Below, in pieces: positions 50,127 through 56,734 of a stretch of 64,000 bases of DNA. Numbering within the stretch: the stretch's first letter is position 1; the number at the start of each line of letters is the position of its first letter. Origin of the DNA: Thermoplasmatales archaeon. Lineage in GTDB: Archaea; Thermoplasmatota; E2; UBA202; JdFR-43. The notes under the pieces are model-generated. The model did not search any database. It saw only the letters and a list, made by a program, of their open reading frames with translations, and had not been told where the DNA came from. The stretch spans positions 1 through 64,000 of the forward strand of contig JACIWA010000006.1 in assembly GCA_014361195.1 (NCBI GenBank), read 5' to 3'. The translations under genes and the position numbers were made by a program.

Positions 50127-51098
50127 ATGGCAAAAATATTCATTACAAGGCGATTGCCTGAAGAAGGATTGAATTTGTTAAAAGGGCACGAGCTTGAGAT
50201 ATATGAAGGAGATGCCCCTCCAAGTAAGGAAGAGATTATAGAAGGAGTTAAAGGAAAGGATGCTTTGATATGCTTGCTAACAGATAGGATAGATGCAGAG
50301 GTTATTGAGAAAGGAAAAAATCTTAAAATAATAGCGAACTATGCGGTTGGAGTAGATAACATAGCTATTGAGGAAGCGACAAAAAGAGGAATATTTATAA
50401 CAAACACCCCAGGTGTTCTTACTGAAACAGTTGCGGATCTGGCCTGGGCCTTAATGATGGCGATTGCTAGAAGAATTGTTGAAGGGGATGAATTTGTGAG
50501 GCAAAGAAAATTTAAGGGATGGGCTCCTATGCTTTTGTTGGGAAGAGATATATATGGAAAAACTCTGGGAGTAATAGGAGCGGGTAGAATAGGGAAAGCT
50601 TTTGCGAAGCGTGCAACAGGCTTTTCGATGAAAATCTTGTATTATGGTAAGCGTAGAGATGAAGAATTTGAAAATGAGACAAATGCAAGATTTGTTGGCT
50701 TGCATGAATTGCTAAGAGAATCTGATTTTGTTTCTCTTCATCTCCCTTTAACCAAAGATACATATCACATAATAGGAGAAAATGAGCTAAGGATGATGAA
50801 AAAAACCGCCTACCTTATAAACACTTCCCGTGGTAAATGTGTGGATGAAAAAGCGCTTGTAAAGGCTCTCAAAGAAGGATGGATAGCAGGTGCAGCGCTG
50901 GATGTTTATGAAAATGAGCCAGAGGTAAGTGAGGAACTCCTTTCTTTAAAAAATGTTGTGCTTGCTCCTCATACTGGCTCAGCATCTTATGAAACTAGAA
51001 CAAAGATGGCAATAATGGTTGCTGAAAATGTAATATCTGCATTAAATGGAAAAATACCCCCGCAATGTTTAAATCCGGAAGCAATAAATTATAGATGA
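50127..51098 (+). CDS. D-2-hydroxyacid dehydrogenase (glyoxylate/hydroxypyruvate reductase type)
   Basis: 323 residues. NAD site GVIGAGRIGKAFAKRATGF (near residue 150), catalytic Arg in NTSRGKCVDEKALVKAL (near 238), Glu in DVYENEPEV, and the His of VLAPHTGSASYETR (near 288). Similar in layout to archaeal GyaR glyoxylate reductase; phosphoglycerate dehydrogenase is less likely because no regulatory ACT domain is present. The start is three bases after pdxT. The promoter of alaS overlaps its end. Confidence 0.88.
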   Translation: MAKIFITRRLPEEGLNLLKGHELEIYEGDAPPSKEEIIEGVKGKDALICLLTDRIDAEVIEKGKNLKIIANYAVGVDNIAIEEATKRGIFITNTPGVLTETVADLAWALMMAIARRIVEGDEFVRQRKFKGWAPMLLLGRDIYGKTLGVIGAGRIGKAFAKRATGFSMKILYYGKRRDEEFENETNARFVGLHELLRESDFVSLHLPLTKDTYHIIGENELRMMKKTAYLINTSRGKCVDEKALVKALKEGWIAGAALDVYENEPEVSEELLSLKNVVLAPHTGSASYETRTKMAIMVAENVISALNGKIPPQCLNPEAINYR

Positions 51099-51100
51099 AA

Positions 51101-51112
51101 AATAAATATATA
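51101..51112 (+). promoter_or_regulatory. TATA box of alaS
   Basis: AATAAATATATA at 51101-51112 is centred 25 bases before the ATG at 51131. It lies three bases after the stop of the dehydrogenase gene. It argues that alaS starts at 51131 from its own leaderless promoter rather than at the upstream in-frame ATG 51095, which would place the promoter inside the coding sequence. Confidence 0.65.
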
Positions 51113-51130
51113 TTTTCCCAATATTATACA

Positions 51131-53620
51131 ATGCATCATGAATTGCAGAAATTGCTTCAGCTAAAGTTCTTTGAGCGAGAGGGGTTTAAAAGGAGAAAGT
51201 GTAATATCTGTGGATCTTTCTTTTGGATTAAAGGGGATGAAGAGCGATGTGGTGATGCTCCTTGCGTTAGCTATTCTTTTATAGGTAACCCTATAGGGAA
51301 AAAAAGCGATTTGCACAGTATGAGGCAAAAATTCCTATCATTTTTTGAAAGAAACGGGCATAAAATAATAGATCGCTATCCTGTTGTAGCAAGATGGAGG
51401 GATGATATCTATCTTACAATTGCATCAATAGCAAACTTTCAACCCCATGTGACAAGTGGTATGGTTAAACCACCCGCAAACCCCCTTGTAATTTCCCAGC
51501 CAAGCATAAGATTAAATGATTTGGAAGAAGTAGGAAAAAGCGGTCGCCATCTCACCCTTTTCGAAATGATGGGTCATCATGCCTTCAACAATCACGAAAA
51601 GATTTACTGGACGGAGGAAACGGTAGAATATTGCAACAGATTCATGGAAGAAATTGGAATAGAGAATGTAATTTACAAGGAGGCGGAATGGGCGGGCGGG
51701 GGCAATGCGGGCGCATGCCTCGAAGTTCTTTGCAGGGGGCTTGAGATTGCTACTCTTGTTTTTATGAATTTGAGGGAGGAGAAGGATGGGGAGTTTTTGA
51801 TTAAGGGAGAAAGATATGCTAAAATGCCTATTCAAGTTGTTGATACTGGTTATGGCTTGGAGAGGCTTGTATGGCTAACTAACGGAAGCAAGACAGTGTA
51901 TGATGCAATCTTTAAGTATGCGGTTGATGAAATTTTGGAGAAAGCAAAAGTTCCTAGAATGGAAGAGATATATGCAATTGCTGATCACGCTCGATGCATT
52001 ACCTTTATGCTATCTGATGGAATAATTCCATCCAATTCTGGAGCGGGTTATCTTGCAAGACTTGTTATAAGAAGGGCCCTTCGCTTCATGAAAAAAATTT
52101 CATATGAAGGGAGTTTATTTGATGTTGTATCTTTGCATATAAACGAGATGGGGAAAGATTTTCCTGAATTAAAAAACTCAAAAAGCAGAATAAAAGAAAT
52201 ACTTGAAATTGAGGAAGAAAAATTTGATTCAATAGTACAGAGGGGAAAGGCTATTTTATCAAGATACAAAAAGATTGGAATAGAAGAACTTATTGAGCTT
52301 TATGATTCTCATGGAATCCATCCAGAAATTGTTAAGGAAATAACGCATGTTGAAATTCCAGAAAAATTTGAATCAATGGTCGCGGAGAGACATTTAAAAA
52401 GTAGAGAAGAAAAGGAGGAGGAGAAATTTTATCCATATAAAACATTGAAAATTTATTATGAAATGCCATATGAGAAAGAATTTGATGCAAGAGTTATTTT
52501 TAAAGGAGAAAATTTTGTTATTCTAGATAAAACTCTATTTTATCCAGAAGGAGGAGGGGAGAAAAGTGACACTGGCTATTTAATTCAAAATGATAAAAAG
52601 GCAAGGGTTATAAAAGTGGAAAAGGCGGGAGATGCTATCCTGCATTATATAGAAGGGGATATAGAAGAGGGTGAAGTTAAAGGAATTATTGATTGGGAGA
52701 GAAGATACTCAATGATGATTCATCATACCGCAACCCATATCATAAATTATTCCGCTCGCTCAATTCTTGGCGAACATGTGTGGCAGGCTGGGAGTGAGCT
52801 AGATGAGAATGAGGCAAGACTTGATATAACTCATTATAAGAGGATAAGTGAAGAAGAAGCAAAAAGAATAGAAAAAGTGGCAAATGAGGTTGTAAGGAAA
52901 GGAATAGAGGTTAGAAAGGGTTTCTATGAAAGGAATGAAGCGGAGAAGAAATATGGAATGAGAATATATCAGGGAGGCGCACCAAAAAGTGGTGTGGTAA
53001 GGATAGTTGAAATTCAGGGTGTGGAGGCGGAGGCTTGCGGGGGGATGCATATCAATAATACCTGTGAGGCGGGGTTGATAAAGATAATAGGGATTGAGAG
53101 AGTTCAGGATGGGGTGGAAAGAATAAGGTTTTGTGCGGGTGAAAGGGCTATAGAGTATGTGCAAAACCAGGAGTATGTTATAAAAAAATTGGTTGAAATT
53201 TTAGATGCACAGCGAGATAAGATTGTTGAATCTGTTGTTAAAATGGAAAAAGAAAACAAGGATTTGAGGAAAGAATTGAAAAGGCTGCAGGAGAAGTTTG
53301 GAAAGGAAAAAGCGGAGGAATGGGGAGGAATAAAGATAATAGTTGAAGAGAATCTTCAGCCATCTTCAATAAAGGAATTGACGAAGGAAAAGGCGGTTGT
53401 CGTGTCAGCTAGCTTGAGGGAAGAAAATGCAATAATTACAGTTGCCTGCTCATCTGATGTTGCTTTAGATTGCTCAAAAATTGCGAAGGAAATAATAGAG
53501 AAATTTAATGGAAGAGGAGGGGGTAAAAAGACAATAGCTCAAGTTGGCATAGATGCAAATAGAGTTGATGAAGTGAAGGAAAAAATAGTTGAAATGGTAA
53601 AAAGGGAAATTGAAAAATGA
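51131..53620 (+). CDS. alaS: Alanyl-tRNA synthetase, archaeal type
   Basis: 829 residues from ATG 51131. The archaeal N-terminal zinc segment (RKCNICGSFFWIKGDEERCGDAPCVSYSFIGNP) precedes the class II core (FERNGHKIIDRYPVVARWRDDIYLTIASI, FEMMGHHAFN, AGGGNAGACLEVLC, DTGYGLERLVWL). The C-terminal half holds the editing domain with HHTATHIINYSARSILGEHVWQAGS and ACGGMHI, then a coiled coil (KMEKENKDLRKELKRLQEKFGKEK) and a C-Ala-like oligomerisation part. In-frame ATG 51095 would add 12 residues. The protein recognises the G3:U70 pair, which is present in the tRNA-Ala gene at 55949-56036. Confidence 0.95.
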   Translation: MHHELQKLLQLKFFEREGFKRRKCNICGSFFWIKGDEERCGDAPCVSYSFIGNPIGKKSDLHSMRQKFLSFFERNGHKIIDRYPVVARWRDDIYLTIASIANFQPHVTSGMVKPPANPLVISQPSIRLNDLEEVGKSGRHLTLFEMMGHHAFNNHEKIYWTEETVEYCNRFMEEIGIENVIYKEAEWAGGGNAGACLEVLCRGLEIATLVFMNLREEKDGEFLIKGERYAKMPIQVVDTGYGLERLVWLTNGSKTVYDAIFKYAVDEILEKAKVPRMEEIYAIADHARCITFMLSDGIIPSNSGAGYLARLVIRRALRFMKKISYEGSLFDVVSLHINEMGKDFPELKNSKSRIKEILEIEEEKFDSIVQRGKAILSRYKKIGIEELIELYDSHGIHPEIVKEITHVEIPEKFESMVAERHLKSREEKEEEKFYPYKTLKIYYEMPYEKEFDARVIFKGENFVILDKTLFYPEGGGEKSDTGYLIQNDKKARVIKVEKAGDAILHYIEGDIEEGEVKGIIDWERRYSMMIHHTATHIINYSARSILGEHVWQAGSELDENEARLDITHYKRISEEEAKRIEKVANEVVRKGIEVRKGFYERNEAEKKYGMRIYQGGAPKSGVVRIVEIQGVEAEACGGMHINNTCEAGLIKIIGIERVQDGVERIRFCAGERAIEYVQNQEYVIKKLVEILDAQRDKIVESVVKMEKENKDLRKELKRLQEKFGKEKAEEWGGIKIIVEENLQPSSIKELTKEKAVVVSASLREENAIITVACSSDVALDCSKIAKEIIEKFNGRGGGKKTIAQVGIDANRVDEVKEKIVEMVKREIEK

Positions 53621-55948: not shown

Positions 55949-56036
55949 GGGCCGGTAGATCAGCTGGAAGATCGCCATCTTGGCATGGTGGAGGCCGCGG
56001 GTTCAAAAGCGCTGGCTGAAAATCCCGCCCGGTCCA
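55949..56036 (+). tRNA. tRNA-Ala (GGC) with a T-loop intron
   Basis: Acceptor GGGCCGG pairs with CCGGTCC including G3:U70, the alanine identity pair; discriminator A at 56036. D-arm GATC/GATC, anticodon stem CCATC/GGTGG with loop TTGGCAT (anticodon GGC, at 55982-55984 region), T-stem GCGGG/CCCGC at 55997-56001 and 56024-56028. The T-loop is too long by 15 bases; removing 56008-56022 restores the normal TTCAAAT loop. The mature tRNA is 73 bases. CCA is not encoded. It sits downstream of alaS and the glycosidase-like gene. Confidence 0.93.
56008..56022 (+). other. 15-base tRNA intron with bulge-helix-bulge
   Basis: The intron AGCGCTGGCTGAAAA lies between T-loop positions 59 and 60. The pre-tRNA can form a canonical hBHBh: outer helix is the T-stem, central 4-bp helix TTCA (56002-56005) with TGAA (56017-56020), 3-base bulges AAA (56006-56008) and AAT (56021-56023), and a small inner hairpin GC-GCTG-GC. 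Cuts between bulge bases two and three give exactly 15 bases and a 7-base T-loop. Cleaved by the archaeal splicing endonuclease (known enzyme; not in the window). Confidence 0.85.
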
Positions 56037-56041
56037 TTTAA

Positions 56042-56734
56042 ATGGAAGAAGAGCTGAAAAGGATAGTGGATGAATATATGCAAAAAGTTCCGGGGATTAG
56101 GGAATATTGTGAAAGATGCCTTAGGACAGAAAGGTGGCATGGAAGCGTTGTTCTGATGGTGGTTGATGCCTCCTTTACTTCAATAGGATTAAACTATTTT
56201 AATGCGGTTGTTCCAAAAGTTTTTGAGTTTGATGAGAAATTTGTTAGGAGCGGAAGGATTACAAAACTTAAAGAGCTTGCGGAAGCTAATATAGAGGAGC
56301 TCAGGAAAGTGTGGAAAAATGAAAGGAGCTGGGCTATTGCAAGAGAAATTTCTGCATATCTTTCTCAAATATCAAGCAATGATAGAGAGGCGTTAAGAAA
56401 GTGGGCAAAAAATGTTAATCTTGAAAAATGGAGAGAGGATGGGATTGGAAGAATAAAGGGTGTAGGGCTGGTAACTCTTCAATATTTGAGAATGATGGGT
56501 GGCATCGATACCTTAATGCCGGATAAAATAGTTAAAAGAGTAATAAATGATATTCTTGAAAGAGCGGGATATGAAGCAATAGAAGATGATATGGAATTTA
56601 TAAAAACAGCGGAAAAGATTGCAAAAATTTGTGGATATAAGGCGATAGAGCTTTGCTGGATGACATGGCTTGTTCAAGGCGAAGGGAATAAGATAAGAAT
56701 GGAAAAATATTCGAGAATTTTAGATAAAATTTGA
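56042..56734 (+). CDS. Helix-hairpin-helix DNA glycosylase-like protein
   Basis: 230 residues. The C-terminal half shows the HhH-GPD pattern: IGRIKGVGLVTLQYLRMMGGIDTLMPDKIVKRVI (near residues 135-170), with the hairpin G-V-G, a catalytic-like Asp in MPD, and an all-helical N-terminal domain. No iron-sulfur cysteines and no catalytic Lys of the EndoIII type, so a monofunctional glycosylase or a DNA-binding protein without activity are both possible. It begins six bases after tRNA-Ala. Confidence in fold is moderate. Confidence 0.65.
   Translation: MEEELKRIVDEYMQKVPGIREYCERCLRTERWHGSVVLMVVDASFTSIGLNYFNAVVPKVFEFDEKFVRSGRITKLKELAEANIEELRKVWKNERSWAIAREISAYLSQISSNDREALRKWAKNVNLEKWREDGIGRIKGVGLVTLQYLRMMGGIDTLMPDKIVKRVINDILERAGYEAIEDDMEFIKTAEKIAKICGYKAIELCWMTWLVQGEGNKIRMEKYSRILDKI

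Follow-up and report, generated by a model that had tools for sequence, protein, structure and literature searches.

Does the segment at positions 55949 to 56036 of the window (the whole 64,000-nucleotide stretch of DNA analyzed here) hold a working tRNA gene whose oversized T-loop is trimmed by splicing, and if so, which enzyme might trim it and where might the extra bases have come from? ARAGORN and Rfam (gathering threshold) reported only Val and Arg tRNAs in the window and did not call a tRNA-Ala(GGC). Direct reading of the 88 bases gave a complete tRNA-Ala(GGC) with a G3:U70 pair at exactly these coordinates, the identity given in the original prediction. The gene has an acceptor stem of GGGCCGG/CCGGTCC with discriminator A, a D-stem of GATC/GATC, an anticodon arm of CCATC-TTGGCAT-GGTGG (anticodon GGC at 55982-55984, plus strand), a V region of AGGCC, and a T-stem of GCGGG/CCCGC. 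Its T-loop comprises 22 bases (TTCAAAAGCGCTGGCTGAAAAT) rather than the usual 7. After in silico removal of 56008-56022, ARAGORN called a 73-nt tRNA-Ala(ggc); the unspliced sequence gave nothing. The insert thus interrupts an otherwise complete tRNA, and its removal leaves a standard cloverleaf.

The 5′ exon (55949..56007, plus strand) corresponds to positions 1 to 59, matches that part of the ARAGORN-called spliced form exactly, and is followed by the 15-nt putative intron AGCGCTGGCTGAAAA (56008..56022, plus strand), which lies between positions 59 and 60 as had been predicted. The 3′ exon (56023..56036, plus strand; direct reading) covers positions 60 to 73, i.e., U60, the 3′ strands of the T-stem and acceptor stem, and A73; CCA is not encoded. 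The insert is absent from the intronless orthologue of a same-genus genome (G001), to which the spliced tRNA is identical at 71 of 73 bases, with differences at the 30th and 47th bases. In the surrounding window, an alanyl-tRNA synthetase gene (51095..53620, plus strand; Pfam PF01411, PF07973, and PF02272) lies 2.3 kb upstream, and a 230-amino-acid open reading frame (56042-56734, plus strand) starts 5 bases past the end of the tRNA gene. The latter had no match in Pfam or NCBIfam; a helix-hairpin-helix-like stretch in its product (GIGRIKGVGLVTLQYLRMMGG) suggests a DNA glycosylase-like protein.

The junctions can be read as an archaeal bulge-helix-bulge motif, and the elements named in the original prediction were all found in the letters. 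The 5′ strand of the central helix, TTCA (positions 54 to 57; 56002..56005), pairs with TGAA at 56017..56020, giving a 4-bp helix between two 3-nt bulges, AAA (56006..56008; predicted cut at 56007/56008) and AAT (56021..56023; predicted cut at 56022/56023), all on the plus strand. Of the outer helices, the T-stem has 5 bp and the intronic helix h′ (56009..56016, plus strand; GC/GC around a GCTG loop) only 2 bp; constraining the fold to this motif costs 2.3 kcal/mol relative to the minimum, and the T-arm's minimum-energy fold lacks the central helix. With AAA at each end of the intron, sequence alone would allow several cutting registers that give the same mature loop; the cut is placed at 59/60 because the bulge-helix-bulge rule puts it there, and splicing so predicted would restore the perfect TTCAAAT loop that had been anticipated.

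The same anatomy recurs within the host genome. When all 88 bases served as the query, matches spanning the insert came from relatives and from a second host tRNA. The loci of low-scoring Rfam matches in the genome, fetched and read, yielded seven further tRNAs interrupted at 59/60 by 13 to 30 nt (Ala-CGC, Arg-CCT, Asp-GTC, His-GTG, Lys-TTT, Leu-CAG, and Pro-CGG). ARAGORN recognized all eight genes when spliced and missed seven of the eight when unspliced. The host therefore has 8 T-loop-intron genes, all using a single site, of about 44 tRNA genes, counts that rest on the searches and the fetched stretches. Anticodon-loop introns occur in four other host tRNAs (a Met, Thr-TGT, Tyr, and Trp). 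The one in tRNA-Trp (C4:3800-4400 of the host) is long and contains ATGATT; by analogy with other euryarchaea, in which this is known, it may hold a C/D guide RNA. A pattern search of the host genome gave no match for Ala(TGC), and neither Ala(TGC) nor Arg(CCG) was found by any model; these genes either fall in an assembly gap or are too disrupted for the models.

Beyond the host, a whole-tRNA covariance model (R1), together with fetched loci, gave a curated set of 89 genes with 59/60 introns in 21 of the 22 genomes of the order, with 1 to 14 per genome and insert lengths of 13 to 61 nt at the single site. We then have a second view from a T-arm model (R2), which was run on 380 Thermoplasmatota genomes in place of a plain pattern survey that was too noisy outside the order. 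R2 was positive in 22 of 22 order genomes (1 to 12 matches each) and in none of the genomes of the class outside the order. Among the remaining 358 genomes of the phylum, 29 were positive, nearly all with one match. In a separate set of named genomes, 6 of 7 Methanomassiliicoccales had one or two matches, and 1 of 24 genomes from other groups, mostly methanogens, had one. All 20 stretches read from R2 matches lay in a tRNA context (18 from outside the order; one was a 3′ fragment at a provirus in G001, described below). By named genome, matches numbered 17 for HyVt-387, 7 for M10_bin2222, 6 for JdFR-43, and 4 for AUK247; JdFR-43 was assigned to SILVA group 20c-4 in its original report (PMC5369317). 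Sequence comparison thus points to the window intron as one copy of an order-wide 59/60 family. The original prediction had regarded a T-loop intron as unusual for Thermoplasmatota: the intron is real, but it is no lone oddity, with eight in the genome, all order genomes positive, and single copies elsewhere in the phylum. Several Thermoplasmatota families outside the order carry a tRNA-Lys(TTT) in which a D-loop intron accompanies the T-loop intron at 59/60. In a different phylum, a pattern match in Methanothrix sp. MAG 280 showed a tRNA-Ser(CGA)-like gene with an apparent 59/60 intron and a D-arm insertion, below the R2 threshold used.

Covariation across the family supports the proposed pairing. 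Curated cases share the junction form T-stem, TTCR, AAN bulge, interior, YGRR-like strand, NAT bulge, T-stem, and in 85 of 87 genes the 5′ bulge is AAA, AAT, or AAC and, likewise in 85 of 87, the 3′ bulge is AAT or TAT. Over 40 aligned T-arms, the nine pairs had 97.5% paired cells compared with 83.9% when shuffled, and far fewer when slid; for the central-helix pairs, 95% of cells were paired, with column 57 changing on both sides. At exon base 57 and the intron base opposite it, the combination was A-T in 29, G-C in 31, and G-T in 5 of 87 genes, with mispairs in 22, of which 18 were G-A. With the motif enforced on all 89 genes (median, 1.2 kcal/mol above the minimum; equal to the minimum itself in 28), the central helix had 4 bp in 66 and 3 bp in 23, and the intronic helix had at least 2 bp in 83. 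The strict motif (4-bp helix plus h′) could be formed in 60 genes, and 29 were relaxed (23 with a 3-bp helix and 6 without h′, two of the latter belonging to the host genome).

We are highly confident in one reading of these data, namely, that this is a tRNA-Ala(GGC) gene, very probably functional, with a 15-nt protein-spliced archaeal intron at 59/60 belonging to an order-wide family copied between tRNA genes. Both gene and intron are real and not a product of chance: the anatomy is shared by seven more host tRNAs and by 81 others in the order, and the exon-57/intron pair covaries. On this reading the precursor T-arm would fold into the T-stem, the TTCA/TGAA central helix, the AAA and AAT bulges, and a short intronic hairpin; the host's single alpha′2 endonuclease (EndA) would cut between the second and third bases of each bulge, and an archaeal tRNA ligase would join the halves to restore TTCAAAT. 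Transcription and splicing, the exact cut sites, and the ligase are inferred.

That the locus is instead a pseudogene or decaying copy broken by a small insertion, as its being missed by standard tools might suggest, is very improbable. Every stem is intact, the ends of the insert are complementary, and a perfect T-loop is left; moreover, the gene is the only copy found of an anticodon needed for GCU and GCC. A second intact Ala(GGC), named beforehand as a sign that this copy is a pseudogene, was not found by a mature-sequence search of the host genome, in which the next match was Ala(CGC), although the assembly (1.25 Mb, 39 contigs, 96% complete) could have another Ala(GGC) gene in a gap. The seven other interrupted tRNAs (His, Asp, Lys-TTT, and others) are each the sole gene found for their anticodon, so they cannot all be pseudogenes. 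We give just as little weight to the idea that the extra bases are simply kept and that the order has tRNAs with enlarged T-loops. Splicing is not evident from the sequence of one gene, which leaves room for that idea, but an insert length that spans 13 to 61 nt at a single site, an exon base 57 that pairs with the insert, the preservation of T54-C56, A58, and U60 as for a normal loop, and insert-free orthologues in the genus all argue against it. Two other kinds of gene were considered and rejected: a self-splicing group I or II intron, since the insert has only 15 nt and no such Rfam family occurs in the window, and a permuted tRNA gene, since the exons stand in their usual order with 15 nt between them.

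The original prediction held that splicing at this position usually needs a broad-specificity endonuclease and proposed finding out which type (alpha2, alpha4, or epsilon) the genome encodes. That expectation was not borne out: the only endonuclease gene found by the genome search is of the fused alpha′2 type, with a single chain of 313 amino acids, within the span of about 290 to 350 expected of this type, containing two PF01974 domains. No second PF01974 gene that would encode a separate beta subunit was found in the host genome, nor a three-unit fusion. The closest solved match is that of Archaeoglobus fulgidus (1R0V/1RLV; 5e-31), aligned nearly end to end, and the catalytic Y254, H261, and K292 of the C-terminal repeat, aligned with 1R0V, are conserved in 15 of 15 aligned sequences. 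The host enzyme has no insertion at the site of the extra residues in the A. fulgidus variant 3P1Y, which we take to be a grafted crenarchaeal loop (Crenarchaea-specific loop [CSL]; PMC6379350), and no long order-specific insertion was visible in the alignment of 15 sequences. The closest named relatives of this EndA come from the Thermoplasmatales genomes JdFR-43, HyVt-387, and AUK, in keeping with the Thermoplasmatota-type host assumed from the start. In every order genome that yielded an EndA match, the gene had the single-gene alpha′2 architecture with the Tyr, His, and Lys conserved; the EndA search gave no match in six order genomes (G005, G011, G015, G018, G019, and G021), and G020 had two identical-scoring copies on one contig.

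Enzymes of the alpha′2 type are classed as narrow (PMC6379350; PMC12397907), and noncanonical introns have been linked to (alpha-beta)2 and epsilon2 enzymes (PMC6379350; PMC12397907; PMC3218864); another group has reported that homodimeric enzymes cut bulge-helix-loop motifs too (PMC8707768). Because the strict motif, with its 2-bp h′, could form, the window intron would need no relaxed specificity, and it is compatible with either the narrow or the broader view of alpha′2 enzymes. The two views make different predictions for the 29 relaxed introns of 89, in 23 of which the helix has 3 bp and in 6 of which h′ is missing, and which the alpha′2 enzyme may or may not process.

Noncanonical tRNA introns have been described as almost exclusive to Crenarchaeota, their abundance being tied to heterotetrameric or epsilon2 endonucleases (PMC3218864; PMC6379350). 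The Thermoproteales introns with noncanonical bulge-helix-bulge motifs (Sugahara 2008 and Fujishima 2010, as cited in PMC4090602 and PMC4033280) are likewise protein spliced and located outside 37/38, including in the T-loop, and near-identical introns in different tRNAs of one genome are read there as intron transposition. Unlike those, the introns described here belong to a Thermoplasmatota order that reuses site 59/60, with a few ordinary anticodon-loop introns besides, and they accompany a single alpha′2 endonuclease gene rather than an (alpha-beta)2 enzyme with a CSL. The alpha′2 enzymes of A. fulgidus, Thermoplasma, and Ferroplasma (PMC6379350; PMC8707768) resemble that of the host in having two repeats in one chain of ~300 amino acids, the catalytic Tyr/His/Lys, and no CSL; the open-access literature searched reported no large sets of non-anticodon introns in known alpha′2 hosts. 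Many noncanonical introns outside Crenarchaeota are also known from the Asgard lineages Atabeyarchaeia and Freyarchaeia (PMC11291895), where 92 to 95% of tRNAs carry introns, often several per gene, compared with 8 T-loop genes of about 44, at one site, here. Permuted tRNA genes of Thermofilum and red algae share the 59/60 junction (PMC3218864) but not the normal exon order and 15-nt intervening sequence of this gene. The kind of gene found in the window is already known; relative to the open-access literature searched, what is new is a clade-wide, essentially single-site family alongside an alpha′2 enzyme.

An order with only an alpha′2 gene, in which two thirds of the introns are strict and one third relaxed, makes the idea of coevolution directly testable, the alternatives being that the introns are constrained by the enzyme and that alpha′2 enzymes are broader than thought. 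A more far-reaching view, which we put forward only tentatively, is that the whole order has mobile T-loop introns, including the relaxed forms, spliced by an alpha′2 enzyme without known broad-specificity loops and carried from gene to gene and cell to cell in part by viruses via intron-containing attachment sites. If true, it would break the proposed link of noncanonical introns to (alpha-beta)2 and epsilon2 enzymes. On the practical side, many such genes escape standard annotation.

Several observations bear on how the introns spread. The host Ala-CGC and Leu-CAG introns are identical, the Ala-GGC and Arg-CCT introns are identical at 13 of 15 bases, and the Ala-GGC intron is missing from the congener G001; in G012, 1 of 34 bases distinguishes the Ala-CGC intron from that of Thr-CGT. 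Near-identical introns are thus found in different isotypes of one genome, as in the transposed families of Thermoproteales. Mean between-isotype intron similarity was higher within genomes (0.074) than between genomes (0.026), a difference reached by 0 of 1,000 label permutations; the count of very close pairs alone was not significant (P = 0.065). Independent origin in each tRNA, with the shared ends reflecting a motif that the enzyme requires at TTCRAAT, would fit the need for a 59/60 intron to close with roughly YGAAAAT if it is to pair with TTCR, as well as the single-copy 59/60 introns of distant lineages in the phylum. We consider it unlikely given the permutation result, the cases in which different isotypes of a single genome share identical or nearly identical intron interiors, among them the G012 Ala-CGC/Thr-CGT pair, and a TGCAACTTGC...GCAAGTTGC core that recurs among Cys, Lys, Arg, His, Ala, and Val tRNAs.

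Copying between tRNA genes possibly took place by recombination between T-arms or through integrating viruses with the intron in their attachment sites. A head-tail provirus in G001 (C4:16500-39300), with portal, capsid, tape-measure, tail-tube, and tyrosine-integrase genes, is flanked by an intact intron-bearing tRNA-Arg(CCT) on one side and a perfect 75-bp direct repeat of its 3′ half on the other, with the whole 30-nt T-loop intron included. The integrase reading frame extends into this repeat. An intron-containing attachment site that brings the intron into a tRNA is also the model proposed for Caldiarchaeum tRNA-Thr (PMC3293823). Spread by viruses or plasmids that integrate at the intron-bearing 3′ half of a tRNA is somewhat more plausible than independent origin, though still doubtful: the case is single, such an element would move an intron between equal or similar tRNAs and not readily from Arg to Ala, and the core motif TGCAACYTGC was not matched in a T-loop context in the virus contigs searched. 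Nor is this motif dispersed as a repeat through the window, where it was matched 9 times with at most one mismatch, compared with 5.9 expected. T-arm recombination accounts equally well for the Ala/Arg and Ala/Thr pairs. Because the G001 provirus is one case, the mechanism of spread is inferred, as is the direction of copying. The patchy, partly near-identical introns, together with this provirus, offer a natural system for studying how tRNA introns spread. Two small contigs of G006 (C191 and C206) carry the same intron-bearing tRNA-Lys(TTT) within at least 149 identical surrounding bases and represent a strain variant, an assembly duplicate, or the border of an element.
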